From positions 1 through 64,000 of the forward strand of contig NZ_JSEH01000013.1 of NCBI RefSeq assembly GCF_000801335.2: 64,000 nt of DNA, in the 5' to 3' direction. The position numbers and the translations under genes are program-made. The notes under the pieces were generated by a model. That model saw nothing but the letters and a program-made list of their open reading frames with translations, did not search any database and was not told the origin of the DNA. Positions 2,914-33,265 of the stretch are shown piece after piece. Source of the stretch: Desulfovibrio sp. TomC. Its GTDB lineage: Bacteria; Desulfobacterota; Desulfovibrionia; Desulfovibrionales; Desulfovibrionaceae. Each line of letters begins with the position of its first letter. The first letter of the stretch is position 1.

Positions 2914-2960
2914 GCCTTCTAAGCAGACGGCCACAGGTTCGAATCCTGTCGGACGCACCA
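2914..2960 (+). tRNA. 3' half of tRNA-Arg(UCU), attachment-site relic (copy 1)
   Basis: The sequence begins at the anticodon loop CTTCTAA (anticodon TCT) and runs through the variable region, a T arm with ACAGG/CCTGT stem and TTCGAAT loop, the acceptor strand and an encoded CCA. It resembles the 3' half of E. coli argU. The upstream 5' half (acceptor, D arm, 5' anticodon stem) is absent, so this cannot be a functional tRNA. Such 3' halves are the usual footprint of integration by tyrosine recombinases at tRNA genes. Confidence 0.8.
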
Positions 2961-2972
2961 CAAGTATTTCAA

Positions 2973-3004
2973 GGGGTTAGGTCGTTTTCGGCCTGACCCC
3001 TTTT
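2973..3004 (+). terminator. Intrinsic terminator carried with tRNA-Arg fragment
   Basis: A 12-bp stem (2973-2984 with 2989-3000, including G-U pairs), a TTTT loop and four T's afterwards. The same hairpin follows the tRNA-Arg fragments at 13282 and 28282 and a decayed copy at 33139, so it is probably the original tRNA terminator duplicated with the attachment site. Confidence 0.75.
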
Positions 3005-3085
3005 GTCATGTGGATAACCGGGGTGGATAACATCTTGGCCAACCCTACGGGATAACGCGGGAATTTTGGATAACATTCGGGCAGA
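3005..3085 (+). repeat. GGATAAC module, copy 1
   Basis: Four GGATAAC heptamers start at 3012, 3025, 3050 and 3068 (spacing 13, 25, 18). The same arrangement follows the tRNA-Arg fragments at 13.3 and 28.3 kb. Confidence 0.7.
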
Positions 3086-3601
3086 TGCTATCCTGCGTAT
3101 GGGCAGACGGCTGGGGAGGCGGCCCGGAATTACGGATTTTTCTAATCGGACTGTGTTGCGCGGGCACTTTGCGGGACCGCTGTTGGCCAACGGCGCGGGG
3201 CTTGATGCCGCCGCACGGGGCCTTGCGGTTTGTATCGTCTGCGGAGCACTTTTGTTGTGCTGCCAGCAATTGAGGCCTACCAGTTTCAGAAAATGTAGTA
3301 AATAATCAAGGGATGCCAGGGGTGCTGACAATGTCCAGGTGCCCCTGGCCAGAGGGCTATGTCTTCCTCCTATGCCGGATAAGGGACCTGTCCGGGCAGA
3401 TGCTGTTCCGTGTTGAGGCAGACTGGCACGAGTGTCGCTGAATATGAGATTCCAGGTGTCCATGGTGCTGCTCTTCCTCCTGAATTTTGGGGAGATCCAG
3501 GTGGAAGGAGCAGCCGGGGCAGGATCACGGGCACGACGAGGCCCTGGAAATCGGACTTTTAGGCCGGGGGCTTCCTGCGTTTATGAAGGGGAGGGGGTGC
3601 G

Positions 3602-12370: not shown

Positions 12371-12815
12371 AAGCGAGGAATCCTTTGCCACTGCGCGGAA
12401 AAACCAGAAGAGGCAAGAAGTCTGGATGGTTATGAGAATATCGGCAGCGCGTCAGCGCAACTGCCGGCTCCAATGCTGGTCCTCTCTCGGCAGCAGGGGG
12501 GTGGCCAACGTGATCTGACTGCTAAAGGACAGGAGAAGGTGTTTTCGTGGATGCCTCTCGTAGCAAAGGCACTGGAATAAGCGGCATTGAAACAAGTAAA
12601 GCACTGGAATATAGATATAAACTTCGATGCGATGCCGCAGTGGCTCTGCAAAATCGAAGTGATAACTACAAAATAATATCCAATATAAAACACATTTTCA
12701 GCGAAGATATGTCAAGGATATTTTTAAAAATAAAACAAGGTTCGATGAGTTGTTTCGTGATAAAGTGATATAATATATGGTGTTAAGTCGATTGTGTCCT
12801 GGGTCGCTGTGACGG
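12371..12815. other. AT-rich intergenic stretch
   Basis: About 440 bp upstream of the glucan synthase. The part from 12540 to 12790 is strikingly AT-rich compared with the flanks. The ndvB promoter should lie here. I see no convincing gene. Confidence 0.4.
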
Positions 12816-13088
12816 TTGGTTGAGGATTACGATTTTCCCCGGTCGAGGCTCTCTCACCCGATCAGCACTCAGGATGTCCCCGGTTTGGATGCCGGCGGCA
12901 TGCATGAAATCGCCGCTTGCCCGAACATAAAAAGTAGCCGCCGGGTTGCTGATGAGCAGTTCGTTGAGGTCAAAGAAGAAGCAAAAGAGATGGATGACCT
13001 GGTTGGTAAGGCCCTAAAACTTGTTGACCAAAAGCTCGAAGATTTCGCGAAAGCCAACAGTCTGGCTCCCTCAAAATACGAAAAATGA
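12816..13088 (+). CDS. Hypothetical protein, possibly the 3' end of an island gene
   Basis: A 90-residue frame from a TTG. Only the C-terminal half looks protein-like: an acidic/basic helical stretch with EEAKEMDDLVGKALKLVDQ, ending in KYEK just before the direct repeats that precede the tRNA-Arg fragment. The matching position upstream of the 28.2-kb copy shows a related DNA tail, so this may be the decayed 3' end of a gene native to the integrating element. I recognise no family, no ribosome site supports the start, and it may not be expressed. Confidence 0.25.
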   Translation: MVEDYDFPRSRLSHPISTQDVPGLDAGGMHEIAACPNIKSSRRVADEQFVEVKEEAKEMDDLVGKALKLVDQKLEDFAKANSLAPSKYEK

Positions 13089-13094
13089 CCGCGC

Positions 13095-13222
13095 TTTTGG
13101 TCTATTTTTGGTCTAGTGACGATGGAAAAGGACGGGATAAGCGGGGCAGCGGTGGGCAAGTAATAGACTAAAATGACGAGGATTTTTTAAAAAAGTACAA
13201 GGATTGCGAGGGCTTTTCGACC
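13095..13222 (+). repeat. Arm-like repeat region, copy 1 (upstream of tRNA-Arg relic)
   Basis: Starts with two tandem TTTTGGTCTA-type units (13095-13116) and continues to the tRNA fragment. It aligns along its whole length with 28097-28222, with only scattered differences. The paired short repeats next to a tRNA 3' end look like arm-type recombinase sites; that role is inferred. Confidence 0.6.
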
Positions 13223-13269
13223 GCCTTCTAAGCAGACGGCCACAGGTTCGAATCCTGTCGGGCGCACCA
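13223..13269 (+). tRNA. 3' half of tRNA-Arg(UCU), attachment-site relic (copy 2)
   Basis: Same structure as copy 1: anticodon loop CTTCTAA, T arm ACAGG/CCTGT, acceptor strand CGGGCGC and CCA. No 5' half is present. It marks the end of the ndvB block and the start of the NHL block. Confidence 0.8.
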
Positions 13270-13281
13270 GAATAAAATCAA

Positions 13282-13313
13282 GGGGTTAGGTCGTTTTCGG
13301 CCTGACCCCTTTT
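13282..13313 (+). terminator. Intrinsic terminator after tRNA-Arg relic, copy 2
   Basis: A 12-bp stem (13282-13293 with 13298-13309), TTTT loop and a T run. Identical in design to the one at 2973. Confidence 0.75.
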
Positions 13314-13395
13314 GTCATGTGGATAACCGGGCTGGATAACATCTTGGTCAACCATACGGGATGACGCGGGAATTTTGGATAACATTCGGGCAGAC
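13314..13395 (+). repeat. GGATAAC module, copy 2
   Basis: GGATAAC (third copy GGATGAC) at 13321, 13334, 13359 and 13377, with the same 13/25/18 spacing as copies 1 and 3. Confidence 0.7.
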
Positions 13396-13800
13396 GTTGG
13401 CCGTGCTTGGGCAGGCGGCAGGAACGTCGGATCCCGAAAATTTCTCTACGCCTTCGGAATTGCGCGCGTTCGCCAACCTGAGAGACGGTTGACCGGCCGG
13501 TCGCCTCTCTTGCCTGGCCTGCCCCGTCCAGGCGGCACGCATCCTCCCTCCCGTTGCCGGTGCAACGCTTTTCCCATCCCGAGCGACGCTGGGCTGTCCC
13601 TGAATTCCCTTACGCAAGATCACGGATTTTACTGACAGCTTTTCAACACATGTTGGTGTTAACGATCCCAGAGAATAACGATGCCATCAGGAAAATCGGG
13701 GGAGGGATAACTGCCGGTTCTTCCCGCACGCCGCTGCGGCCTTGTCGACGGCACGCCGCTTATGCTTTCTTCGCATGCAAACTCTGAAGAGGTACAAGCC

Positions 13801-16018: not shown

Positions 16019-17260
16019 TCAGGTGTAACCCTCCCTTAAAATGTCTGCTGGTCGCATCCTTGTGGCAACTTTTCCCAGCAGAAAAGCTGCAACGAGGCCT
16101 GTGACAATCGAGCAGGCCAGGGCTGCGGTCACCAATTTCCACGAAAGCTGAATCGGCAGCTGGATTGCCTGGTTGGCCAACGCTCCGATCTTCACCGACG
16201 CAGGGACTGGGTTGAGTTCCCAGGCCGTATTCATCGGAATGGAAAGTGTCCCGATGCAATAGGCTCCGAGATACCCGAGCCCTATGCCGATCAGCCCTCC
16301 GAGCAGACATTGGACCATGGCTTCCCCCAGAAGCTGCCCCTGAACATCCTTCCCTGTCCACCCGACCGCCTTGAGCACCCCGATTTCAGGAAGACGCTCC
16401 CCAAGACTGGCCAGCATGGATTTGAGGATGAGCAGGATCGCGCCCACCAAGGCGATCAGCGAGGCCACGACGGAGAACTTGCCGGTGATCACCGAAACGC
16501 CGCCCATCAGTTCCAGAAAGCTGTCGGAACTGCTGGCCGACAAGCCTGGAAACGCGGCCAGGACTTTCTGTTGTACAGCTCCTTGCATGGCGGGATCACG
16601 CAGCCGTAAGTAAACCACGTTGATCGGGGCCTGCGCCTCGGGAAGCAGCGACTGGGCATCGGCAAGCCGCAGGTAAATATTGGCCGCAGCAACCTGTGCG
16701 CCTTCGCGTATCTCCAGCATGCCGACGACGGCAAAAGGCTTGCCCCCAATCTCCAGGGAATCACCCAGGTGGATGCCGCGAAACTTGGCGAAGTGTTTTT
16801 CCACCAGGGCCTCGCCGGCCTGCTGCGGCGCATGGCCTTGGCTTGTCCACTGCGTCAGGTGCACAGGCCCAAGGTCGGGCTGTGCGGTATCCAACCCCAT
16901 GATCGTTCGGAATCCTCCCGAGACAAACTCCCAGAGCAAAAGGGAGCCGGAAGCGGCGGCAACACCATCCACGCGGCTCAAGGCGTCAAACTCCTCAACG
17001 GATATGACCTGATTGGAAAAAGGCAGTTTGATGCCCCGCATGGACAGGGTCCCTTGGCCGAGCTGCCGGTTCTTTTCAGCGCGCTGCACGACCAGATCAG
17101 CACCCAGATTTTCGAAGGGGAGGCTGACCGCTTTCTGGTAACCGGCAGAAACCGCGTTGATGGACACAAAGAGCCCGACCCCGACGGCTATGCCCAGGAT
17201 GTTGAGAAGCGTTCGGTGCGACCTGTGCCGCAATTCATGTACAATGTAGGAATAGCGCAT
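16019..17260 (-). CDS. MacB/LolE-type ABC exporter permease
   Basis: A 413-residue inner-membrane permease with an N-terminal membrane helix (about 15-38), a large periplasmic MacB_PCD-like domain (about 40-250) and a C-terminal FtsX domain with three helices (about 265-290, 315-350, 375-400). Its N-terminus closely resembles that of the permease at 18335-19585 (both MR[YF]SY, then GADL or GADI), so the two are paralogues and may form a LolC/LolE-like heterodimer driven by the ATPase at 17677-18342. It is the last gene of the ten-gene operon. Substrate unknown; such exporters move lipoproteins, peptides or drugs. Confidence 0.85.
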   Translation of the reverse strand: MRYSYIVHELRHRSHRTLLNILGIAVGVGLFVSINAVSAGYQKAVSLPFENLGADLVVQRAEKNRQLGQGTLSMRGIKLPFSNQVISVEEFDALSRVDGVAAASGSLLLWEFVSGGFRTIMGLDTAQPDLGPVHLTQWTSQGHAPQQAGEALVEKHFAKFRGIHLGDSLEIGGKPFAVVGMLEIREGAQVAAANIYLRLADAQSLLPEAQAPINVVYLRLRDPAMQGAVQQKVLAAFPGLSASSSDSFLELMGGVSVITGKFSVVASLIALVGAILLILKSMLASLGERLPEIGVLKAVGWTGKDVQGQLLGEAMVQCLLGGLIGIGLGYLGAYCIGTLSIPMNTAWELNPVPASVKIGALANQAIQLPIQLSWKLVTAALACSIVTGLVAAFLLGKVATRMRPADILREGYT

Positions 17261-17275
17261 GCCGATGGCCCCGCT

Positions 17276-17680
17276 TCAATTTTGCTTCGTGACCATATCA
17301 AGCGCCTTGGTCAGGAGTTCAAGCGTCCACTTCCCCTGAAACATGGCTGGCCCAGCTCCACTGGGGAAACCGGAAAAGGTGCACGGTGCGCCGTCAATTT
17401 CCATGGTTTCCTTGCCGTTGATCCAGATCACAAGAGGGACATGGCGCGTGACACCCATTTTGGCCATGAAATCCTCTCCTTCTCGACTTTCAAAATCATG
17501 CCAGCGGACAGTGAGCCTGTCGTCATAAGTGGCCAAGAGATCTTTCATATTGTTGAGTGTCGGTCGCAGGGGACCATGATTCATGAAAAGGACATCGATC
17601 ACCGCCGGGCCAGAGGCCTTGGCCAGCCCAGGCAACACCAGGGACAGCACCATGGCCGCAATGACAACGACTTTGTTCAT
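17276..17680 (-). CDS. Exported thioredoxin-fold-like small protein without CxxC
   Basis: 134 residues with a signal peptide (MNKVVVIAAMVLSLVLPGLA, cleavage after AKA). The mature part looks like a thioredoxin fold: a beta strand VIDVLFMN, then at the active-site position HGPLRP instead of CxxC, a helix, TVRWHDFES, and HVPLVIWING, which recalls the cis-Pro strand. Only one cysteine (GAPC) remains in the mature protein, so disulfide exchange is unlikely. The ATG overlaps the stop codon of the upstream ATPase gene, and the permease gene follows 15 bp downstream, so it is probably an accessory subunit of this exporter. I do not recognise a named family; the fold call is inference from pattern. 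Confidence 0.65.
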   Translation of the reverse strand: MNKVVVIAAMVLSLVLPGLAKASGPAVIDVLFMNHGPLRPTLNNMKDLLATYDDRLTVRWHDFESREGEDFMAKMGVTRHVPLVIWINGKETMEIDGAPCTFSGFPSGAGPAMFQGKWTLELLTKALDMVTKQN

Positions 17681-18342
17681 GACAGCATCTCTCCATCCTG
17701 CATGCGAAGCACGCGGTCGGCTGTTTGGGATAATTCCAGATCATGGGTGACCATCAGGATGGTCATCCCGTGTTCCTTATGGAGCGTTCCCAGTATCCGC
17801 ATTATGGCTTCACCCGTTTGTGAATCCAGGTTGCCGGTCGGTTCGTCGGCGAAAATGATCTTGGGATTGTTGACAAGGGCGCGGGCTATGGCCACCCGCT
17901 GCTTCTCGCCTCCTGATAAAGCCCCGGGCAGATGGTCCTGGCGATGCTCTAGCTGCATTTGCTGCAGGAGGGATATTGCCCGCTCCCGGCGCTCCTCCTC
18001 CGCCATCTTGACAGGGAAAAGGGGGACGGCCACGTTTTCCCAGGCAGAAAGCGTCGGAATCAACTGGAACGATTGGAAGATGAACCCAATATTGGCCCGT
18101 CGGAAAAGAGCCAATTCGTTTTCCGAGGCGGTGACGATATCCTTGCCGCAAAGGGTGACCTGCCCCGAGGTCGGGTGATCCAACCCGGAGATCAAGGACA
18201 GGAGCGTTGTCTTTCCGCTGCCTGATTTTCCGACCAGACTCACGAACTCCCCAGCTTTCAAGACAAGGGATACGCCTTTTACCACCTCGACGGGTCCGAA
18301 GGTCTTCTTGATATCCGTAGCAGACAGGATGTGATCATTCAT
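17677..18342 (-). CDS. ABC exporter ATPase (LolD/MacB type)
   Basis: 221 residues with all ABC motifs: Walker A GKSGSGKT at 38-45, signature LSGGEKQRVAIARAL near 142, Walker B IIFADEPTGNLD near 165, and a switch histidine in MVTHD. The length and GNLD sequence are typical of the LolD/MacB/FtsE group that partners FtsX-like permeases. It overlaps the upstream permease gene by 8 bp and the downstream thioredoxin-fold gene by 4 bp, indicating translational coupling. It probably energises the permeases encoded on either side. Confidence 0.9.
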   Translation of the reverse strand: MNDHILSATDIKKTFGPVEVVKGVSLVLKAGEFVSLVGKSGSGKTTLLSLISGLDHPTSGQVTLCGKDIVTASENELALFRRANIGFIFQSFQLIPTLSAWENVAVPLFPVKMAEEERRERAISLLQQMQLEHRQDHLPGALSGGEKQRVAIARALVNNPKIIFADEPTGNLDSQTGEAIMRILGTLHKEHGMTILMVTHDLELSQTADRVLRMQDGEMLS

Positions 18343-19585
18343 GGCGAAGAACCTCTGAAGGTTTGATCCGGGTTATGCGCCCGATGCACAGAATGCTGGT
18401 GATGGCGCCGACCAGGAGGGAAAGGACCAGAGCGAAAACGGCAATGGACCAGGAGAGGTTGGCAGGCAGCGCCACGGTTTTAAACACCGGTTCCCCGCCT
18501 CCGGGGAGAAAATGCGGCGTGGGGCTCATCTCCCAGGGGATAGGGATATTGACCTGCTGAAATCCCAAGACGAAGCATACAACCCAGGCGATACCAAGGC
18601 CAAGGAGACCAGCCAGAAAGCATTGGGTCATCGACTCCGCCAAAAGCTGCCCGATGATGTCCCCGTTGGTCCAGCCCAGGCATTTGAGCACGCCGATCTC
18701 CCGGGCTCGTTCCTGAATGCCGCCGGCGATCGTTTTGAAAACCATCAGAAAGGCCACGACCATCACGATCAGCGAGGTCGCCGCAGCGAACTTGTCGGAC
18801 AGGGCGAAGAGATTGCCAAGCTGTCGCAAGAACGACTCCGGGGTCGCGACTGCGGTCTTATCCCCCAGGAGTTGTTTAAGTGCGGCGGCCAGATCGGGAA
18901 TCACTTCCTGATCCGCTGTGACGAAAACAAGATTCACATCCTCGGCGTCAAACGGAGAGACACCCTGGACCTGGGGCGAAGCCTTCGCCATCATTTGCGC
19001 TTGCGCCAGGGGCAGATAGACGTTGGCCACGGCAATCTTGGAGGCGCGCGAAGCATCGACCAGCCCAACGATCGGATAGGGCTTATTTAGGATCGTCACC
19101 ACGCCGCCGACGTCGAGTTGCCGGTCCCGGGCATAGGTTGCATCCACCAGAGTCTGGGGAGCGTTCCCTTCAAGGAACCGACCTTTGGTGACAAAATTTC
19201 GAAGCTTTCCAGGTCCCAAGGGATTTGTCGGATCAAGCCCCATCACCATGGCGAACTGATCCTTGTCAAAGACCCACATCAAAAGCGCCTGCCCAACGGC
19301 ACGGACTCCAGGCATCTGGCGGATTTGCTCCACTTCCTGGCGCCGGATGGTCACGGCCGAGCAGGGAAATACCGCTCCTTGCAGTTCTTGGGGGACATCG
19401 CCGGATCGCTGGATGCTGATGTCGGCTCCGATTTCCTGAAGCGGCATCCGCGCCGCTTCTTTGTACGCCCCGGCCAGGACCTGGAGACCGACCAGAAGGG
19501 CCACTCCCACGCTCAGTCCGAAAATTGCGGTGAGATGCCGTCTCCTTCGCAAGGAAATTTCCCGCCAGACATAGGAAAATCGCAT
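18335..19585 (-). CDS. MacB/LolC-type ABC exporter permease
   Basis: A 416-residue FtsX-family permease: N-terminal helix (about 17-40), periplasmic domain, and three C-terminal helices (about 270-295, 320-350, 380-405). It is a paralogue of the permease at 16019-17260. Its stop overlaps the ATPase start by 8 bp. Together the three genes look like a LolCDE-type complex with two different permease subunits. Confidence 0.87.
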   Translation of the reverse strand: MRFSYVWREISLRRRRHLTAIFGLSVGVALLVGLQVLAGAYKEAARMPLQEIGADISIQRSGDVPQELQGAVFPCSAVTIRRQEVEQIRQMPGVRAVGQALLMWVFDKDQFAMVMGLDPTNPLGPGKLRNFVTKGRFLEGNAPQTLVDATYARDRQLDVGGVVTILNKPYPIVGLVDASRASKIAVANVYLPLAQAQMMAKASPQVQGVSPFDAEDVNLVFVTADQEVIPDLAAALKQLLGDKTAVATPESFLRQLGNLFALSDKFAAATSLIVMVVAFLMVFKTIAGGIQERAREIGVLKCLGWTNGDIIGQLLAESMTQCFLAGLLGLGIAWVVCFVLGFQQVNIPIPWEMSPTPHFLPGGGEPVFKTVALPANLSWSIAVFALVLSLLVGAITSILCIGRITRIKPSEVLRHE

Positions 19586-19606
19586 GGTTGATGGCCTCCA
19601 GGCCGT

Positions 19607-20077
19607 TTATTGGCTACAGGGAAGGTTTTGCTGGATGAAACTTCGGCGCATCACCTGGAAAAATTGCTTCTTTTGATCCTGGTTCAGTATTTGTTTCATT
19701 TGCAGAATATGGTCGAAAACCATTTGCTGCATCGTGGATTGAAGCTCCAAAATACCTTGCCGGACTTGATTGGCTTTGGACATATCCACGTTATCCTGTT
19801 CCATCAGAGACATCATGATGTCACGCTTCCCGTGGATTTCAGTTGATAGCGCGCCAATCTTTTCATGAAACTTTTGCGCCAGGGGTGTTATGGAGGCGAG
19901 CTGGTCGGGAGAGAGACCAAGTAATGCATACAAACGATCATCGTTCGAAACAAGGGGACATCCGTTTGGAGGGGTCACACCTCTTGTCTGAATAAATCTC
20001 AGGCCGAACATGGCGGCAACACCCAAATTCATGGCCAGGGAAGCCGCCAAAACAGAAATCAATATTTTGTTTTTCAT
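19607..20077 (-). CDS. Spy/CpxP-like periplasmic protein
   Basis: 156 residues: a signal-anchor helix (MKNKILISVLAASLAMNLGV), then an all-helical domain with two LTxxQ-like motifs, LSPDQLASI near 54 and LNQDQKKQF near 133, as in Spy, CpxP and CnrX-like periplasmic stress or metal sensors. The helix without an obvious cleavage site suggests it stays membrane-anchored like CnrX. It overlaps the anti-sigma gene by 4 bp, which fits a role as a periplasmic sensor acting on that anti-sigma factor. Metal binding is not demonstrated: there are few histidines. Confidence 0.7.
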   Translation of the reverse strand: MKNKILISVLAASLAMNLGVAAMFGLRFIQTRGVTPPNGCPLVSNDDRLYALLGLSPDQLASITPLAQKFHEKIGALSTEIHGKRDIMMSLMEQDNVDMSKANQVRQGILELQSTMQQMVFDHILQMKQILNQDQKKQFFQVMRRSFIQQNLPCSQ

Positions 20078-20601
20078 TGTTTCACCTGCGTAACTTCACT
20101 TACCAGCACGAAATAACCCTGGGCCAGAGAGCCTCTCGGCGTTGGCGCAAAAACATCCAGCGCGTCCAGGGTCACCGCCTGCTCTTGCGATGTCGCTCCT
20201 GTAGCCAATGGTCCAATCCCCTCTTGCCAAAGACTCCGTCCCATCCAGCCCCCCATCATGAGCCCGAACAGGACCATGGCGGCTATAGCGGCGGGAGCGG
20301 GAAACATATTCGCCAAGGCATTTCGCCAATCGCGATGGCTCGATGGGGATTGCTCGGTGATTTTTCGCATAACCTCCCGAGCGAATTCCGGTCTTGGTTG
20401 CACCGAAATCGAATCGTCCAGGTCCTGCCAGAGTTGCCGCAACTCCACCAAGGCCAGACGGCAGTCCGGGCACTCCTTGAGATGCGCTTCTATTGCCAGA
20501 AACCAATCAAACGATACTTCGCCGTCTGCAAAGGCTGACAGCTTCCTGCGAACCGAGGCGCAGTCTTTTTTTGAGGCTGTTGGCTTGTTCATACCGTTCA
20601 C
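20074..20601 (-). CDS. Zinc-finger anti-sigma factor (zf-HC2)
   Basis: 175 residues. The cytoplasmic N-terminus has the anti-sigma zinc motif: an upstream C (KKDCASVR) and H-x3-C-x2-C (HLKECPDC near 44-51). One membrane helix lies at about 106-125 and a periplasmic tail follows. This architecture sequesters an ECF sigma factor at the membrane until a periplasmic signal arrives. The presumed partner sigma factor is the first gene of the same operon (23837-24430), separated from it by three transporter genes, an unusual spacing. Confidence 0.82.
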   Translation of the reverse strand: MNGMNKPTASKKDCASVRRKLSAFADGEVSFDWFLAIEAHLKECPDCRLALVELRQLWQDLDDSISVQPRPEFAREVMRKITEQSPSSHRDWRNALANMFPAPAAIAAMVLFGLMMGGWMGRSLWQEGIGPLATGATSQEQAVTLDALDVFAPTPRGSLAQGYFVLVSEVTQVKQ

Positions 20602-20619
20602 TCCGTTTGTCGGGGCTGC

Positions 20620-21309
20620 TCAATGCACTTCATGGGTGATCCGGCCATCACGAACTTCAAATATTCTGTCGAACCCCTCGACCATGCGGTGGTCATGGGT
20701 AACAACCAGGATGGCTGATCGGTTTTCCACAGCCAATTTTTTAAGGAGCGCCATGACGTTGTGGCCGTTTTCTGTGTCTAGGGCGGCGGTTGGTTCGTCA
20801 GCCAGGATCACCTTGGGCCGGTTGGCCAGCGCCCGGGCGATGGCAACGCGTTGCGACTCACCGCCAGAAAGGGCGGTTGGGTAGTTGTTCAGCCGATGTC
20901 CCAGATTCAGTGCTGACAGCAATTCTGCCGCCCGCTCCTTGGCTTCCTTACGGGGGATGTGATTGATTTCGAGCGCAACCATCACGTTTTCCATGGCGGT
21001 CAAAAAAGGGATAAGGTTGTGCGATTGAAAGATGAATCCAAGTTTCTCCCGCCGGATGCGTTTGAGATCCTGGCCCGGCGTCCAACCATTCGCGGCAACG
21101 ACTGTCCCGTCAATGACCACCCGGCCACAGGTGGGTTCATTGATAAGCCCGATGGCGGTCAGAAGCGTCGTTTTCCCAGAGCCGGACGGACCGAGAATGG
21201 CCACCAGTTCTCCAGGCGCGACCTGGAACGTGGCGTCCGCGATAGCCGTCACCTCTGTCTCGCCCTTGCCGTAGATTTTCGTCAGACTTTCGATCTCGAC
21301 CGCGTACAT
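20620..21309 (-). CDS. ABC exporter ATPase (DevA/MacB type)
   Basis: 229 residues with Walker A GPSGSGKT (about 39-46), signature LSGGESQRVAIARAL, Walker B VILADEPTAALD and switch VVTHD. It follows the DevC-like permease gene by 3 bp, so adaptor, permease and ATPase form a DevBCA-like tripartite exporter. Such systems export glycolipids, peptides or other compounds through a TolC-type channel, which is not encoded here. Confidence 0.9.
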   Translation of the reverse strand: MYAVEIESLTKIYGKGETEVTAIADATFQVAPGELVAILGPSGSGKTTLLTAIGLINEPTCGRVVIDGTVVAANGWTPGQDLKRIRREKLGFIFQSHNLIPFLTAMENVMVALEINHIPRKEAKERAAELLSALNLGHRLNNYPTALSGGESQRVAIARALANRPKVILADEPTAALDTENGHNVMALLKKLAVENRSAILVVTHDHRMVEGFDRIFEVRDGRITHEVH

Positions 21310-21312
21310 GGA

Positions 21313-22515
21313 CTAGCCTCCCAGGGCTTCCGCCGGTTCGACCCGCATGGCCTTGCGGATGCCGACCAAGCTTGAAATGGTGCAAATGGCCAGGATGAGG
21401 ACAAAGAGTCCTTGGAGGTCAGAAGCCTCCAGAACGATGCGGCGCGGGAATTTTTCATAGGTCAAGGTGATCAGGGCATAGCCGATGCCGTAGGCCAGTA
21501 CCCCCATGAGCAAGGACTGCTCCAGGATCATACCCACAATCACCCCATTGGGAGAACCAATGAGCTTGAGTGTGGCGATGACCCGAATCTTGTCGATGGT
21601 CGAGGTGTAGATAATAAGCGAAATGATGACCGCCGAGATAACCAGCAGGATAATCCGAAAGAGACCCAGCTGCATTCGCGCCTTTTCGATCAGGCCCATC
21701 GTCAGGATGCGGGTTTGTTCGGCTTCGGACATGGCCCGGTAGTGATTCCAGCGACTGATCCGTTCCTGCACGGCTTCCAGATCCGCCCCCGGGGCGAGCC
21801 GGGCCACCACGGTGTTCACCACGTGGGTCGATCCGGTGATGCCGGAAATAACCGAGGCCATGGCTGCAGCCTGGGGAGGAGAAAGTGTCTTAATGTCGCT
21901 TAGGGTCGCAGCATTCCTTGCCCGATCATTGCGAATGGCATTATTGTCTTTCTTGAATTGAATATCCTGGGCATCAGACAAGCTCACGTAAGCAAGGGGA
22001 TCTCCACCGGAAGAGACCATTTTCCCGGTTATGCCGACCACCGTATAGTCATGCAGGCCGAGATGGATTGTCTCGCCAAGCTTCATCTGCATCCCCTGAG
22101 CAACCACCATCTCGTAATGCTTCTGTCGAATGCCCCGGCCAGCCAGGATAGCCGGAGGGCCGCCAAGGCCTTGCAAGTCGTAGCCGACCAGGAAGAACCG
22201 GAACAACTTGCCTTGGCGATCAACCTGAATGGTCTGGAAGGATAAAGGCGAGGCCTCGGCCACGCCGGGAACGGCGGCAATGCGGTATTTCAGGTCTTCT
22301 GGTACGCGGGAATTTTCAGCGAACGGGCCATTGGTGTCCTGCTGCACCACCCAGATGTCCGCTGCTGTGGCCTCGCTGATGGACATGGCGTCGGCAAACA
22401 GGCCGCGATAGATGCCGCCCATGCTCATCACCACGCCGATGAGCAACCCGAGGCCCAGGGAAGTCAGGATGAAACGCCCTTTATTGTAACGGATATCGCG
22501 TACGGCCAGATTCAT
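21313..22515 (-). CDS. DevC-like ABC exporter permease
   Basis: A 400-residue FtsX-superfamily permease: N-terminal helix (about 17-37), periplasmic domain, and C-terminal helices near 285-310, 330-355 and 365-390. It resembles the DevC subfamily in order and context (adaptor gene upstream overlapping by 4 bp, ATPase gene 3 bp downstream). It differs clearly from the two other permeases in the operon, so it forms a separate exporter. Confidence 0.85.
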   Translation of the reverse strand: MNLAVRDIRYNKGRFILTSLGLGLLIGVVMSMGGIYRGLFADAMSISEATAADIWVVQQDTNGPFAENSRVPEDLKYRIAAVPGVAEASPLSFQTIQVDRQGKLFRFFLVGYDLQGLGGPPAILAGRGIRQKHYEMVVAQGMQMKLGETIHLGLHDYTVVGITGKMVSSGGDPLAYVSLSDAQDIQFKKDNNAIRNDRARNAATLSDIKTLSPPQAAAMASVISGITGSTHVVNTVVARLAPGADLEAVQERISRWNHYRAMSEAEQTRILTMGLIEKARMQLGLFRIILLVISAVIISLIIYTSTIDKIRVIATLKLIGSPNGVIVGMILEQSLLMGVLAYGIGYALITLTYEKFPRRIVLEASDLQGLFVLILAICTISSLVGIRKAMRVEPAEALGG

Positions 22516-23669
22516 TGCAACACCTTGGCCCGCTGTCCATCTGCAAACGCACTCATGGCCTGCGTTGGAGCGACCACGATCTGCTCGCCCTCCTCAAGGC
22601 CGCTTCGCACCTCCACGAAATCTCGCCGGTCCTCAATGCCTATGTCCACGGCCTTGAAACCAAGCCGACCGTCCTTGAGAACCCATACCCCGCGTGTCTT
22701 ACCGCGTGAGGCAATCGCTACGGAGGGAAGCGACGGGACGCTGTTTTTCGCACCGGTCACAAGGAACACGTCGGCCTGCTCTCCCAACCGGAAGTGTTCA
22801 ATGGGTGGTTCAAATATCACATCCACTTCGGATTCCTCGGTGACCCGGTCGCTTTGCCGGCCAATCCGGGCAACCCGCCCTGGAAACTGCTCGCCAGGGG
22901 CGCTCCGCAACGTGATGATAGCGGCGTTTCCGACCCGCACCCCAGCCATGTGCGATTCGTCGACATTGGCTTTGATCCATACCGTCCTGGGGTCCGTGAA
23001 CTGAAAGATGGTCTGTCCCGGAGTCACGATGGCCCCCTGTTCCAAGTCCCTGGACAGGATCAATCCATCACTGGGGGCGTATATCCGGGCATCTGCGAGT
23101 TTCGCTTGAGCAAACCTCTGGCTGGCTGTACCCAGTTTCTCGTCCATCCGGGCCGATTCAAGGGCGGCATGAGCCCGACTGACTTCTTCTTTCGCTACCT
23201 GGAAAGCAACTTGAAGCTCTTCTGTATCTTTTTTGGGAACATAATCCTTCTCCAGCAGACGTTCGAAGCGTTCGGCGTTTTTTTTCGCCAAATCCACATT
23301 GGCCAGGGCCTTTTGCAAAGTGGCTGCTTCAACGTTTTGGGCTGCCTGGGCCTTAAGCACAGAAGCCTCGGCTTGGCGCACCTGCTCGGACAAATCGTCG
23401 TTTTCCAACCGGGCCAGCAGCGAGCCCTGCTTGACCAGGTCTCCTTGGTCTGCCTGGAGTTCGACAATCTTCCCCGTGATCTTGCTGGAAATCCCCACGA
23501 CAATCTTGGCCTCGACCGTTCCATTGCCATAAACCTGTGCCGTCAGATCCCGGCTGACGAGCTTGGTGACCTTAACGGAAACGGGCGCAAAAATGGTTGT
23601 CTTCACCAAAACAGCCGTTGCCACAAGAGCGGCCGCCGCAATCCAATACTTTTTGCCGGGTCGTTGCAT
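22512..23669 (-). CDS. HlyD/DevB-type periplasmic adaptor
   Basis: 385 residues: N-terminal membrane anchor (about 10-30), a lipoyl-like half (about 60-95), a helical hairpin (about 100-185, rich in A, K, E and Q), the second lipoyl half with SDGLILSRDLEQGAIVTPG, a beta-barrel domain and a C-terminal membrane-proximal domain. It would link the DevC-like permease to an outer-membrane channel. It is the only adaptor in the operon. Confidence 0.88.
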   Translation of the reverse strand: MQRPGKKYWIAAAALVATAVLVKTTIFAPVSVKVTKLVSRDLTAQVYGNGTVEAKIVVGISSKITGKIVELQADQGDLVKQGSLLARLENDDLSEQVRQAEASVLKAQAAQNVEAATLQKALANVDLAKKNAERFERLLEKDYVPKKDTEELQVAFQVAKEEVSRAHAALESARMDEKLGTASQRFAQAKLADARIYAPSDGLILSRDLEQGAIVTPGQTIFQFTDPRTVWIKANVDESHMAGVRVGNAAIITLRSAPGEQFPGRVARIGRQSDRVTEESEVDVIFEPPIEHFRLGEQADVFLVTGAKNSVPSLPSVAIASRGKTRGVWVLKDGRLGFKAVDIGIEDRRDFVEVRSGLEEGEQIVVAPTQAMSAFADGQRAKVLQ

Positions 23670-23836
23670 GGGTACGATTCCTCAAACCGGTTGGTCAGGC
23701 AGCAGCCTGAACGCCAAGGACAGAAAGGGGCATGACCGCGCCAAGCCCGATGCCAAAGGAGCCACTACCATTGGCCGGGACTGACTTTTGGCCGCTCCTC
23801 AAAAGTGGAACCGGCGAAAGAGAAAAAACCTGCGGT

Positions 23837-24430
23837 TTATTTGTGGTGGGCGGCCAATTTTTTTAAAAGACTGGCTTTGGCCCTGGCCAGGAGGGCATCC
23901 ACGGCAGGGACCGAGCAGTCCAGAATGGCCGCAATTTCCTGGTAGGACAATTCTTCATACCGCCTAAGCACCAGGGCCAGCCGCTGGTTGTTGGGCAATG
24001 ACCGGATGGCGGCCAGGACCAGCTGACTTTGCTCCGCCTGGAGGAGCGCGTCTTCTGGCGAGGATGTGGGGACGATGGGTTCGGGGAATTCCGGAGCGGC
24101 AGCGTCACCGGCAGTCCAGAATGATCCGATGAGCCGGATATGACGTCGCCACAGCGATTGCGCTTCGCTACGGCAACAGTTTGCGGTCACCGTGTACAGC
24201 CATGTGGTGAATTTGGCTGTCGGGACGTAGTTCCCGCAATGACGCCAAACTCGCAGAAAGACTTCCTGGGCCAGATCATTGGCCACGTCTTCTTTTCCGA
24301 AAAATCGATAGATGATTCTGAAAACGGAGGCCTCATGGCGACGGATCAGGCAGGTGAAGGCCATCCTGTCGCCATCCTGCACCAAAGACATGAGTTCTTC
24401 GCTGGACAGGCCAGTGCAATCTTTTTTCAC
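23837..24430 (-). CDS. ECF-family RNA polymerase sigma factor
   Basis: 197 residues. Sigma region 2 (about 20-90) includes DVANDLAQEVFLRVWR, a linker follows, and region 4 (about 125-190) has the helix-turn-helix RYEELSYQEIAAILDCSVPAVDALLARAK. There are no region 1 or 3 domains, as expected for ECF sigma factors. It is the first complete gene of the operon and probably directs transcription of the operon itself; its cognate anti-sigma is likely the zf-HC2 protein at 20074-20601. A 167-bp gap separates it from the adaptor gene. Confidence 0.92.
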   Translation of the reverse strand: MKKDCTGLSSEELMSLVQDGDRMAFTCLIRRHEASVFRIIYRFFGKEDVANDLAQEVFLRVWRHCGNYVPTAKFTTWLYTVTANCCRSEAQSLWRRHIRLIGSFWTAGDAAAPEFPEPIVPTSSPEDALLQAEQSQLVLAAIRSLPNNQRLALVLRRYEELSYQEIAAILDCSVPAVDALLARAKASLLKKLAAHHK

Positions 24431-24472: not shown

Positions 24473-24664
24473 TCAAAATAGGACCAGGGACAGGCCCATT
24501 CCGGTCAAGACCACCCAAAGCACGTCGACATTGCGCCGCAGGGCCGCAAACGCGGCTGCACCGAGCAAGGCGGCAGGACTGTCCAGGGGACGACAAGGCA
24601 CCGTGTACCGGTGATGGCGGCCATCAGTCCTGCCCGCGTAGCTAATCGGCACGGTGGCCAGGCT
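24473..24664 (-). pseudogene. C-terminal remnant of a membrane protein, chromate-transporter-like
   Basis: On the minus strand one frame reads without a stop through roughly 60 codons and ends in RRNVDVLWVVLTGMGLSLVLF, a terminal hydrophobic helix. The position and composition resemble the C-terminal end of ChrA-family chromate transporters. No start codon or ribosome site is present and the rest of the gene is missing; the DNA upstream is AT-rich and unrelated. It ends 43 bp before the ECF sigma gene. Family assignment is tentative. Confidence 0.35.
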
Positions 24665-24816
24665 CGCTGACGGCGTTTTTTTTCAGGATGCATCTGACAT
24701 ATCCAAATGTCCAACCAGGAACTTTTTGAACAAAAAATATAAATATTACAATGAATTGCGGCAATGCCCCCCCCTCGCCAAGGAGCAAAAATCGTTCTTG
24801 GCCAGCCATCTTAGTG

Positions 24817-24853
24817 CAAAAAACGAAAGGCCCCGACTGTAGAAGCCGGGGCC
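24817..24853 (-). terminator. Intrinsic terminator (minus strand)
   Basis: GGCCCCG (24829-24835) pairs with CGGGGCC (24847-24853). Read on the minus strand the stem is followed by a T-rich run (24817-24828). No intact gene ends just upstream on that strand, so it may terminate a lost gene or a small RNA. A short minus-strand frame ending at about 24880 (…STLLVEAATTTH) may be the tail of such a lost gene. Confidence 0.55.
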
Positions 24854-25197
24854 AGTAAAGTTGCGATGTAAAAATGACTAATGGGTTGTTGTGGCGGCCT
24901 CGACTAAGAGTGTAGAGCTCGTGTTTACCACACGTGGAGTTTGCCAGATTGTATTTGTTGCTGGCCTCTAAGTGCTCTACTGCGAGGGAGACTGTCCGAC
25001 ATTTAATTCACCCAATGGCATTCCCTCCGTTAAGATTGCAGACAACCTTCACAAAGGACACGACTAAGATATAGGGCCGGGCCGCAACTCTGTCTAGTGC
25101 TTTTTTTGAGGTGGATTCAAAAGAATCACCGTGAATTCAGGCAGTCTGGGAAAAGCTCAATAAGTTCGCTGAGAAATTTGTGCGCATTCCCTGCCGA

Positions 25198-25390
25198 CAG
25201 GCCAAGCCCACGGGAAATTGTGCTTTCAGCCTAGGGGGTCCATCCTGGAGCGGGGATGGGACCGGGGGCAAAGGCCCCAGGGCCAGGAAAACGGTCCAGG
25301 AAGGGGGCGTAGGTTGCGAATTCAGGGGGGGGGCGGCCGGGGCGGCGCTGGGGGAGAGGACGAGCTGGTCCAGGAAGACCAATGGGGCCG
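25198..25390 (+). repeat. G-rich dispersed repeat, copy A
   Basis: Aligns with 27329-27510. Shared blocks include GCTTTCAGCC, a 24-nt identical block starting CTGGAGCGGGGATGGGACCG (25244-25267), and AGGAAGGGGGCGTAGG. Both copies have the same orientation. Long open frames here are composition artefacts. Confidence 0.65.
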
Positions 25391-25537
25391 GGTAAATTCC
25401 CAGCCACTTTGAATCGCTCCGGCTGTTCCTGCGTCAAACACTGCATCAGGGTCAGTCTTCGATGCCCGTGCCAATGAACCAAATTGTTAAAGTAAGGCTC
25501 AGATCATTTAAAAACCGAGATGAAAAACCCTAACCTT

Positions 25538-25999
25538 TTATCTTGCTATCAATGGAAGAGAACGATCCTTGACAACGTTTTTCATTACGAGAGTCGATGT
25601 AAGTCGCTGAACGCTTGGCAGGGTAGAAAGGTGTTCGTCGTAAAGCCGTTGAAAAGAAGGGAGGTCACAAGTTACAATATTCAGGAGATAGTCGAGGTCT
25701 CCAAAGAGACGCTGTGCGTCAATCACTTCCGGAACTTTCATGACTGCATCTTCGAACGATTCGACGGCTTGGCGATTACCCTCACGCAAAGTAACAAAAA
25801 CGAGGGCGGAAAAATTCAGACCTAGCGCACCGGGGTCAAGATGTGCGCGATACCCTTTTATCACACCTGACTGCTCAAGCGCGCGTATGCGGCGATGGCA
25901 TGGAGAAAGGCTTAGCCCAACCCTGTCGGCCAACTCAGTGACTGAGAGGCGACCGTCGAGCTGAATCTCCGCAAGAATTTTTCTATCAATCTCGTCCAT
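25538..25999 (-). CDS. Lrp/AsnC-family transcriptional regulator
   Basis: 153 residues from the ATG at 25999, which has a GGAAGGA site 8-9 nt upstream; the longer frame to 26050 adds an unlikely leader. The N-terminal helix-turn-helix reads MDEIDRKILAEIQLDGRLSVTELADRVGLS, followed by PCHRRIRALEQSGVI, and a C-terminal RAM ligand domain contains GDLDYLL. Such proteins sense amino acids and often control a neighbouring divergent amino-acid exporter. Here a LysE-family exporter gene starts 117 bp away in the opposite direction, so the 26000-26115 gap probably holds the operator. Confidence 0.9.
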   Translation of the reverse strand: MDEIDRKILAEIQLDGRLSVTELADRVGLSLSPCHRRIRALEQSGVIKGYRAHLDPGALGLNFSALVFVTLREGNRQAVESFEDAVMKVPEVIDAQRLFGDLDYLLNIVTCDLPSFQRLYDEHLSTLPSVQRLTSTLVMKNVVKDRSLPLIAR

Positions 26000-26115
26000 T
26001 CGAATAATCCTTCCAAAATTTTCTCCATTAAAGGGAAAAATTGCAAGCACATTCTAATTAAATCAGCATATCCTTTGGCCAGTTTACGACTCCATTACAG
26101 CATAGGAGTTCAGAC

Positions 26116-26739
26116 ATGGCTATAGGAATTCTCGCGGCATTCTGGGCTGTTTCATTTCTGCTGGTGATATCACCAGGGATGGATTGGGCATACACAATCT
26201 CAGCTGGGATGCGCGGTCGGATGGTTTTACCAGCCGTGATCGGGTTATTAATCGGCTATTTGATCATTACAGCAATCATCGCAGTTGGCTTTGGAGTGTT
26301 AATTTCGCAGAATGTTATTATCATGACAAGTATAACGGCTTTAGGAACTATATATCTGCTATGGCTTGGAATAAATACGCTGCGTCATCCTTCTGTCCCT
26401 CAAGTTGGTGAGGCGCAAGAATCCGATTCATGGTCACGCTGGGCAATAAGGGGCGTTGGTGTGAGCGGCCTAAACCCCAAAGGGTTCATACTATTCTTCG
26501 CACTTCTTCCACAGTTCACCGATCCAGCAGCCTCTTGGCCTATCGCTGCTCAGATCATGGCACTAGGAATTGTTCACATTATCAGCTGCGGCGTCATTTA
26601 TTTACTTGTCGGCTATTGTTCAAAAGCAGTTCTACAAACGAGTCCTCGCGCTGCACGAATAGTGAGTCAATTTTCTGGGGCTTCGATGACTGCTATCGCA
26701 CTATTGCTATTTGCTGATCAAATCTTGCGTCACTCTTGA
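26116..26739 (+). CDS. LysE/RhtB-family amino-acid exporter
   Basis: 207 residues with about six membrane helices. The N-terminus (AFWAVSFLLVISPGMDWAYTISAGMRG) carries the family's P-G-P-like SPGMD motif, and the middle has SGLNPKGFILFFALLPQF, typical of RhtB/LysE proteins. It would export an amino acid under control of the divergent Lrp-type regulator. A GGAGTT site precedes the start. The gene is AT-rich relative to the flanks, consistent with acquisition by transfer. Confidence 0.9.
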   Translation: MAIGILAAFWAVSFLLVISPGMDWAYTISAGMRGRMVLPAVIGLLIGYLIITAIIAVGFGVLISQNVIIMTSITALGTIYLLWLGINTLRHPSVPQVGEAQESDSWSRWAIRGVGVSGLNPKGFILFFALLPQFTDPAASWPIAAQIMALGIVHIISCGVIYLLVGYCSKAVLQTSPRAARIVSQFSGASMTAIALLLFADQILRHS

Positions 26740-26777
26740 CCTCTTGATTAACTTCAGAACTAAACGAAGGAGGAAAC

Positions 26778-27095
26778 ATGATCGTTAAATCAGAGGATGC
26801 GCAACAGAGGAGCTTTCTCGGCGTTGACTTTGTTTTGCTATCACACGGATCCGAGTCCATGGTAGCCAAAATGCTCTATAAAGCAGGGGATAACGTTCCT
26901 TTTCATAAACATCCAAACGAGCAAAGCGGCTATATAATTTCAGGAAAATATCGCATCATCTTCAACGATCAAGACCAAGAGATAGGCCCAGGAGATTCTT
27001 ATACTATTCCTAGGAATGTCGAACATCGCATCGAAATCATATCTCCAGGCGAAGTTCTAGACGTTTTTAGTCCGCCTAGGGCAGATTATATATGA
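26778..27095 (+). CDS. Cupin-domain protein
   Basis: 105 residues forming one small cupin barrel: motif 1 has HKHPNEQSGYIISGKYRI and motif 2 PGDSYTIPRNVEHRIE, with likely metal ligands in the HxH, E and C-terminal H positions. A clear AAGGAGG site precedes the ATG. It follows the exporter gene by 38 bp on the same strand and probably shares its transcript. Substrate unknown. Confidence 0.85.
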   Translation: MIVKSEDAQQRSFLGVDFVLLSHGSESMVAKMLYKAGDNVPFHKHPNEQSGYIISGKYRIIFNDQDQEIGPGDSYTIPRNVEHRIEIISPGEVLDVFSPPRADYI

Positions 27096-27328
27096 CCAAT
27101 GAAGTTTCCAGGCACTGCGGCTGCTGTTCATTCACGAGTGCGCGTAAAACAAGTCAACCACTAGGATTGTCAGAACAATTTCGGAAGTAAAAGGAGAAGG
27201 TCAGCGAAGGGTTCTTGCTGGCCTTCTTTATTGGAATGGGATGTTTGCCGGGGGAAATGAACAAGGTTGATGTTTCCACCCAAGCAAATTTTCAGCGGAT
27301 GCATCCGAAATATCCAAAAGTCCAACCC

Positions 27329-27510
27329 GGTGCGAACCCAAAGGAAATCGGGCTTTCAGCCGAGGAAGCACACCCTGGAGCGGGGATGGGACCGGGGGGA
27401 TAAAACTCCAGCCCCAGAGGAACGGCCCAGGAAGGGGGCGTAGGGCGCGAATCCAGGGGGTGTCCGGGCTGGCGGCCGGGGAGCTGGACAGGAGGAGCCC
27501 AGTGTTCGGG
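27329..27510 (+). repeat. G-rich dispersed repeat, copy B
   Basis: Direct copy of the element at 25198-25390, in the same orientation. Together the two copies bracket the AT-rich Lrp-LysE-cupin cassette. Confidence 0.65.
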
Positions 27511-27891: not shown

Positions 27892-27923
27892 GAAAAAGGG
27901 GTTACCGATTTCTCGGTAACCCC
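27892..27923 (-). terminator. Terminator carried with tRNA-Ala fragment
   Basis: A perfect 11-bp stem (27898-27908 with 27913-27923) and a 4-nt loop. On the minus strand it is followed by CTTTTTCT. It lies just downstream of the tRNA-Ala fragment and is probably the original tRNA terminator. Confidence 0.75.
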
Positions 27924-27936
27924 TTGGCATGCTTCG

Positions 27937-27985
27937 TGGTGGAGCTGGAGGGAATCGAACCCACGACCTCTTGAATGCCATTCAA
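27937..27985 (-). tRNA. 3' half of tRNA-Ala(GGC), attachment-site relic
   Basis: On the minus strand the fragment starts in the 5' side of the anticodon stem (TTGA), includes the loop ATGGCAT with anticodon GGC, the stem TCAAG, variable region, T loop TTCGATT and acceptor strand ending in an encoded CCA. The 5' half is missing, so it is not functional. It looks like a second kind of integration footprint, in opposite orientation to the tRNA-Arg relics. Confidence 0.75.
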
Positions 27986-28096
27986 AATCCTCCCGAATTC
28001 CGATCAACCCCTCAACCATTTATAATTCCTGGAGAATTAGGAATCACTCCGGAACCCTGGGATTTGTTTGTTTCACCCGCTATAAAATGACACAGA

Positions 28097-28222
28097 TTTT
28101 GGTCTATTTTTGGTCTAGCAATCACGGAAAGGGACGGGAAAAGCGGGGTAGCGGTGGACAAGTAATAGACAAAATGACGAGGATTTTTAAAAAAGTACAA
28201 GAATTGCAGGGTCTTTTCGACC
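28097..28222 (+). repeat. Arm-like repeat region, copy 2
   Basis: Two tandem TTTTGGTCTA-type units at 28097-28118, then sequence matching 13117-13222 up to the tRNA-Arg fragment. Inferred to be the end of a second, related integrated element. Confidence 0.6.
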
Positions 28223-28269
28223 GCCTTCTAAGCAGACGGCCGCAGGTTCGAATCCTGCCGGGCGCACCA
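28223..28269 (+). tRNA. 3' half of tRNA-Arg(UCU), attachment-site relic (copy 3)
   Basis: Same as copies 1 and 2, with GCAGG/CCTGC in the T stem (compensated change on both sides, so the pairing is kept). No 5' half. Confidence 0.8.
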
Positions 28270-28281
28270 GAATAAAATCAA

Positions 28282-28313
28282 GGGGTTAGGCCATGTTTGG
28301 CCTGACCCCTTTT
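28282..28313 (+). terminator. Intrinsic terminator after tRNA-Arg relic, copy 3
   Basis: An 11-bp stem (28282-28292 with 28299-28309) and a T run. The loop differs from copies 1 and 2, but the stem is preserved. Confidence 0.7.
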
Positions 28314-28395
28314 ATCATGTGGATAACCGGGTTGGATAACATCCTGGTCAACCATACGGGATAACGAGGAAATTTTGGATAACATCCAGGCAGAC
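28314..28395 (+). repeat. GGATAAC module, copy 3
   Basis: GGATAAC at 28321, 28334, 28359 and 28377, with the same spacing as the other copies. Confidence 0.7.
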
Positions 28396-28515
28396 GTTGT
28401 CCTGCGTAGAGGCAGACGGTGGGGGAGATGGGAATGCGGGGCTGGATACCATGGGGCAGAAAGAGGCAACCGGCCAAGGCCATTTTCCCAGAGCCCGCAC
28501 TGCCTCCAGACAACC

Positions 28516-33082: not shown

Positions 33083-33265
33083 GCTCCTTGCAGACGGTCC
33101 AGGTTCGAGTTCTGGCAGGAGCACTACAGGCATTTAAAGGGGTTAGGTCGTTTTGGCCTAGCCCCGTCGGCTTTTGGGATAACCTCTCGGGGTAATATCT
33201 TGGCCAACCTGAGTTCCGTTCGGCCAACTGGAGTCGGGGAATTTTTTGCCTAACCCCTATTCTAG
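33083..33265 (+). repeat. Decayed tRNA-like/terminator/GGATAAC module
   Basis: GCAGACGG and a T-arm-like CCAGG/TCTGG with TTCGAGT loop are followed by AGGAGCA, then the terminator-like hairpin at 33139-33165 and sequence related to the GGATAAC module (GGGATAAC near 33176, CTTGGCCAACC). It matches the 2.9/13.2/28.2-kb modules in order of parts but is much diverged. Confidence 0.55.

Follow-up and report, generated by a model that had tools for sequence, protein, structure and literature searches.

A low-GC Lrp-LysE-cupin gene set as the probable present occupant of an acquisition hotspot between tRNA-Ala(GGC) and a predicted small-RNA gene in Solidesulfovibrio

Small gene sets lying between repeats are familiar from integron gene cassettes. 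Genomic islands that target tRNA genes are recognised differently, since the insertion is marked by a 3' tRNA fragment, and such islands can occur in tandem arrays; in both respects they resemble the locus described here, and the Islander report names Desulfovibrio magneticus RS-1, which is related to this organism, as the genome with most islands (19) in that catalogue (PMC4383910). The ssrA islands of Dehalococcoides come similarly close, displaying tandem direct repeats of an RNA-gene 3' end with variable cargo between them and units without integration genes, for which accretion has been proposed (PMC3146451). We herein describe how a pair of G-rich repeats around three low-GC genes compares with these systems.

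The window (bases 1-64000 of contig C13, i.e. the whole 64,000-nt stretch analysed, from a genome of 5.07 Mb in 84 contigs) contains two copies of a G-rich repeat in the same orientation: the proximal copy C (25207..25365, + strand), which adjoins the modules B and A introduced below, and the distal copy C' (27337..27498, + strand), which adjoins a tRNA fragment. The two are 76.8% identical over 164 columns including gaps and score 113 bits against each other, while the best score among 60 dinucleotide-type shuffles of C' was 30 bits. Between them lie the genes of an Lrp/AsnC-type regulator (25538..26050, − strand; Pfam HTH_24, HTH_AsnC-type and AsnC_trans_reg), a LysE-type exporter divergent from it (26116..26739, + strand; Pfam LysE, 85 bits) and a small Cupin_2 protein (26778..27095, + strand; Pfam Cupin_2), all three of which exceed the Pfam cut-offs. 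The genes have GC contents of 48, 47 and 42%, respectively, against 59.4% for the window; the cargo lies 13-14 points under window GC, and equally low values were found in 0.8% of 625 same-size windows. A further stretch of similar GC lies where the sequence begins on the left (window starts 1-1001), so that the cassette is not its sole low-GC stretch. The first-pass annotation had described two same-orientation G-rich repeats bracketing three low-GC genes, and coordinates, repeat identity, Pfam assignments and GC content all agree with that description. However, homology of the first repeat copy with relatives reaches leftward to about 24773 and rightward to about 25480, beyond the extent given there.

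This longer homology could be resolved into an ordered element. A query spanning 24700-25520 found matches in 8 of 21 genomes, each belonging to the genus, and separated into the modules A-B-C-D, in which A is a predicted structured small RNA (24818..25067, − strand; based on alignment, covariation, covariance model and fold), B a conserved module in the C-A interval (25105..25206, + strand) and D an intergenic repeat adjoining C (25366..25480, + strand). A short repeat, E, is present in one copy beyond A (24686..24719, + strand) and in another adjoining C' (27291..27331, + strand), the latter being found near tRNA-Ala in relatives too. Beyond C', the last 49 nt of tRNA-Ala(GGC) form an att-like fragment (27937..27985, − strand; 100% identity over tRNA positions 28-76), accompanied by its downstream flank (27908..27936, − strand). 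Read outward from the tRNA, the order is tRNA-Ala fragment, C', E, cargo, D, C, B, A, E. The window thus displays a tRNA 3'-end fragment at the boundary, as expected for a tRNA-targeted island. The phage integrase domain PF00589 gave 26 matches in the genome and none in C13:1-64000, and since an integrase is absent from the window, we class the unit as an eroded slot and not as a complete island. Because the slot lies between a tRNA remnant and a predicted small-RNA gene, the repeats form one component of a bigger site that collects genes and are not private borders of the cassette.

We propose that the cassette is probably the present occupant of a Solidesulfovibrio acquisition hotspot between tRNA-Ala(GGC) and the predicted RNA gene A, which was built by accretion and afterwards eroded and shuffled. 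Integrative elements with tyrosine recombinases would have inserted repeatedly at the 3' end of tRNA-Ala, each insertion leaving behind a tRNA fragment with its flank, and the integration genes would then have been lost. Through recombination among the dispersed A, C, D and E repeats, cargo would have been shuffled or deleted until small gene sets remained between the copies. In the window genome, the block composed of Ala fragment, cargo and A would have entered, or become fused to, a tandem array whose units are bounded by tRNA-Arg(UCU) fragments. Two observations made in this genome stand against this model: the window is free of integrase, and the intact tRNA-Ala lies, together with two fragments, on contig C6, which is unjoined to C13. 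In G005 and G008, the intact tRNA-Ala is contiguous with the island.

In G005, tRNA-Ala is located at 84112 and an exact 47-bp repeat of its 3' end at 97529, shortly before which lie an HTH gene and the genes of a small and a large tyrosine recombinase; Replicase-family and ROS/MUCR genes are carried by this first island as well. Three further tRNA fragments follow in tandem at 120902, 135302 and 159163. The second unit again has recombinases, at 114-116 kb, and the next two units gave no match to the two tyrosine recombinase proteins. Three A-bearing blocks are found in G005 between 98 and 166 kb. We additionally observed that a small HTH-like gene with two tyrosine recombinase genes in a row constitutes a recurrent island type, located in G000 on C7 (219.9-222.4 kb), C13 (136.9-139.3 kb), C22 (66.2-68.7 kb) and C39 (15.3-17.9 kb) and in G005 on C2 (94.6-97.2 kb and 113.7-116.2 kb). 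Of the four G000 contigs, three carry C-core repeats, as does the first G005 island.

The unit containing the slot ends on its right in a 3' fragment of tRNA-Arg(TCT) with its flank (28184..28402, + strand). Sister fragments at 2914-3093, at 13184-13402 and, more weakly (74%), at 33090-33165 partition the window's left half into units measuring about 10, 15 and 5 kb, and from these positions the slot is nested at the right end of the Arg-bounded unit at 13.2-28.2 kb. On C29 the window genome has a match to the whole tRNA-Arg gene (91%), with an integrase gene following at a distance of 0.6 kb. Other genes of the 13.2-28.2 kb unit encode an NHL protein, MacB-type ABC parts, a metal-resistance protein, a zinc-finger (anti-sigma-like) protein, an HlyD-type protein and an ECF sigma factor. 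Among eight congeners, a match to the HlyD-type gene (22512-23669) at E 1e-30 was obtained in one (G006, 33%). The neighbouring 28.2-33.1 kb unit holds a kinase, a regulator, DsbD and DsbA, and is followed by a tRNA-Arg fragment in G011 and G004 too. Three side observations belong to this array. The MacB-type ABC parts, metal-resistance protein, zinc-finger protein and ECF sigma factor form a run on the − strand at 16019-24430. A 2929-aa frame with GH94 and glucoamylase-like domains (3602-12391, − strand) is flanked by two tRNA-Arg fragments. A 91-bp repeat, 85% identical between 13082-13172 and 28084-28174, stands just before two of the tRNA-Arg fragments and may be a common right end of related islands.

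We compared the slot across species, in 12 congeners, among them S. aerotolerans DSM 16695 (G006). In six of them (G005, G006, G008, G010, G011 and G012), A and C neighbour tRNA-Ala(GGC) or fragments of it, and four of these six sites are occupied, the remaining two lacking a recognised gene. The occupants differ: MgtC lies between two D-C copies in G010, an HATPase_c_2 protein between a pair of C copies in G008, where the interval from tRNA to fragment additionally holds a hybrid kinase and a small protein, and a HAD hydrolase between tRNA and D in G012, which has a single C. In G005, one unit carries an MCP (chemoreceptor) with a small protein and another an XRE-type regulator with a kinase. 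Single-C sites without recognised gene are found in S. aerotolerans (L077/L120), with 1274 bp from tRNA to A, and in G011 (L081), with 983 bp. Five frames of 63-152 aa at the former site and the longest open frame at the latter gave no Pfam match at E 0.01, and the open frames at both sites overlap the repeats. Between species, the same flanks are hence combined with variable cargo and, in two relatives, with no recognised gene. The first-pass annotation had suggested looking for strains with one repeat and no cassette, and the two sites, in related species, are of this kind. Its term of a small exchangeable unit fits the locus, since sites with a single C and no recognised gene occur alongside sites holding unrelated cargo; as for the repeats themselves, their role as the borders of exchange is unsupported.

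That one ordered set of modules recurs beside tRNA-Ala in several species, with cargo that differs between them, also weighs against another account, according to which the repeats are ordinary dispersed sequences and Lrp-LysE-cupin arrived between two of them by chance, at no special locus. C cores do lie elsewhere in the genome and the genus, including islands beside a ROS/MUCR gene, as this account expects, but taking the recurrence into account we regard it as quite unlikely. The acquisition hotspot remains our preferred reading, although several features of the comparison oppose it as well: cargo borders vary by genome, with the G012 cargo placed between tRNA and D at a single C; A by tRNA-Ala is missing in 6 of the 12 congeners; and A is also found at non-tRNA loci. 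The element query was unmatched in G001, G002, G003, G004 and G009, and in G007 A is confined to a different locus; G003 has, at a tRNA-Ala-like fragment, a copy of C unaccompanied by A.

Repeat C is a dispersed intergenic element of the genus. At E ≤ 0.001, C' matched 10 of 21 genomes, namely 10 of 13 Solidesulfovibrio genomes (own genome included) and none of eight genomes from other families, and a copy also lies beside the ROS/MUCR gene inside the G005 island. A strict core pattern, which misses many family members and within the window finds C' only, matched two records, both Solidesulfovibrio, in a genome-contig collection that may omit records very close to the window's genome; these two matches therefore name the genus and do not bound the family. 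A phage origin of the repeat was considered and rejected, C' being unmatched in the phage collection and the strict core pattern, with its many missed members, in IMG/VR. The search elsewhere in the genome that had been proposed in the first-pass annotation thus yields a repeat dispersed across genome and genus. According to the same annotation, the idea of an exchangeable unit would fail if the repeat were a widespread intergenic element unrelated to gene gain; this applies in part, the repeat being dispersed between genes across the genus, as the copy beside the G005 ROS/MUCR gene illustrates.

The divergence of the repeat bears on whether C, or D-C, could itself be the site of exchange, recombining homologously or site-specifically and without a tRNA-directed integrase. 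In favour of such a mechanism, two C copies enclose the cargo in the window, in G010, in G008 and in two G005 units, with one orientation relative to the tRNA, and sites with a single C exist in G006, G011 and G012. However, within-genome pairs of C are just 62-84% identical (five pairs), distances from repeat to gene vary, C folds are not special, and proximal and distal copies were unseparated on a tree of 18 hand-chosen C copies, for which reason we also rejected orthology within the two classes. Direct exchange between the repeats is, taken together, unlikely. C' is 85% identical to the S. aerotolerans copy and 76% to its own partner C, and we discarded a recent duplication on this ground; judged from these alignments, both window copies are old and divergent. 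The tRNA fragment is the better-supported mark of integration, and the C repeats may have had a role in shuffling.

A small gene set flanked by direct repeats would also be in line with an integron-like or transposon-borne cassette, the repeats then being attC sites, or else terminal or target duplications. In contrast to integron cassettes, though, no integron integrase (TIGR02249) exceeds the cut-off in the genome (23 sub-threshold hits, the best with 77.6 bits against 265), no attC-like fold is seen (DNA fold z of -0.75, 0.91, -1.38 and -1.24, a test of folding and not of attC core motifs), and the cargo is divergent and multi-gene. A composite transposon or target-site duplication calls for near-identical repeats, while those of the window are 77% identical with C' closer to another species' copy, and none of the three genes between them is a transposase. 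With integrase, folds and repeat divergence all contrary, we rejected integron cassette, composite transposon and target-site duplication, and consider this entire class of explanation extremely improbable.

The gene set itself is apparently foreign. In 14 relatives, LysE finds only proteins of 28-34% identity (7 of 15 genomes match at E 1e-10, self included) and one local tblastn stretch at 38%, compared with 56-58% for plasmid genes of Pantoea and Yersinia, which belong to other phyla; no LysE relative was confirmed by six peptide patterns run over the genome-contig collection. A Yersinia enterocolitica plasmid carries both genes in the identical divergent order, with amino-acid identities of 69% for Lrp and 56% for LysE, but no cupin is listed alongside them there, and the best plasmid match of the cupin lies in Sulfuricurvum kujiense (63%). 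The pair and the cupin may therefore stem from separate sources. Lrp-controlled LysE export pairs have the LysE translocator gene running divergently from that of the Lrp regulator, as is the case here, and by analogy with what is established for these families the cargo is most likely an amino-acid efflux pair, in which Lrp would sense an amino acid and control the divergent LysE gene.

At the side of the slot opposite to the tRNA, module A has the outline of a small-RNA gene. In the window it is preceded directly by a promoter-like TAGACA-17-TATATC and has an intrinsic-terminator-like end. Twenty congeneric copies align over ~250 nt with a mean column identity of 84% (a truncated G005 copy, at 98.3 kb, and two incomplete views of that in G010 were left out); in 19 of the 20, the conserved block opens with a promoter-like T(A/G)GACA-17-TATAT, L051 being without the spacer, and a GC-rich hairpin with T-run closes it, outside of which the sequences diverge. 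The single-sequence fold of the window copy has a z of -2.3, with 4 of 200 shuffles equally good, and the 20 congeneric copies alone show changes on both sides in 1 of 45 predicted pairs. At E 0.01, the covariance model matched 14 of 120 genomes of the order: six of the own genus (G004 unmatched), three of a second genus (E 1e-27 to 1e-38) and five of two further genera, the last being weak and partial (E 2.5e-5 to 0.008; 92-189 nt against 249 model positions) and excluded from membership, as was a partial opposite-strand match at L087. For 25 sequences from both genera, the 33 pairs were 97.9% paired against 94.0 in shuffles (0 of 500 as high), 28 cells had changed on both sides against 9.6 (0 of 500), and six pairs contained both-side changes against 3.9 (10 of 500). 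Further pair types were not above shuffles (20 against 18.2; 61 of 500). It should be noted that the structure was derived from the same alignment on which it was tested and that relatedness of the sequences inflates the covariation counts. No Rfam 15 covariance model matched the window at gathering score, and with E allowed to reach 10, the region 24600-25560 gave no more than five hits, all far under gathering scores, which led us to reject a known RNA family for A.

A is therewith a predicted multicopy family of structured RNA, spread over two genera and without Rfam match. Its members comprise the window copy (24818-25067, − strand) and L082, L083-L088 and L155-L157; at least two copies are present in G000, at least four in G006 and at least five full and one truncated in G005. 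Four of those at non-tRNA loci (L083, L084, L085 and L087) share one gene neighbourhood. A 14-codon frame (MPLGE..., − strand, 24863-25022 region) is open in 18 of the 20 congeneric copies and has 17 codons in the remaining two, and it was not found in the five second-genus copies; the frame may be translated, but it is not proof of translation. One might go further and see in A and B-C-D a dedicated, genus-specific platform for uptake and swapping of cargo by tRNA genes, a noncoding block copied with its cargo, in which RNA A would help control acquired genes or integrating elements, but we hold this extension to be very doubtful. As the hotspot is bordered on one side by a predicted RNA family that Rfam does not match and of which one genome holds at least five full copies, the expression of this RNA and any link to gene uptake are directly testable.

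An odd repeat pair has thus become a mapped hotspot of acquisition, occupied in some related species and free of recognised genes in others, to which RNA family A and the nested arrays add interest. The hotspot genus includes the genome with most islands in the Islander survey (PMC4383910). Among titles and abstract openings in the literature, no account of a tRNA-Ala/A hotspot or of RNA A was found. Islander requires an integrase for each island, which the window unit does not have, and the window slot differs further from Islander islands in being flanked by a predicted small-RNA gene and repeat modules (PMC4383910). The Dehalococcoides islands target tmRNA by means of a serine recombinase, whereas here tRNA-Ala and tRNA-Arg are the targets and the intact islands of G005 carry tyrosine recombinases (PMC3146451). 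The acquisition slot at the tRNA hotspot is real, and it represents a kind of locus already known from the ssrA islands of Dehalococcoides and from Islander.
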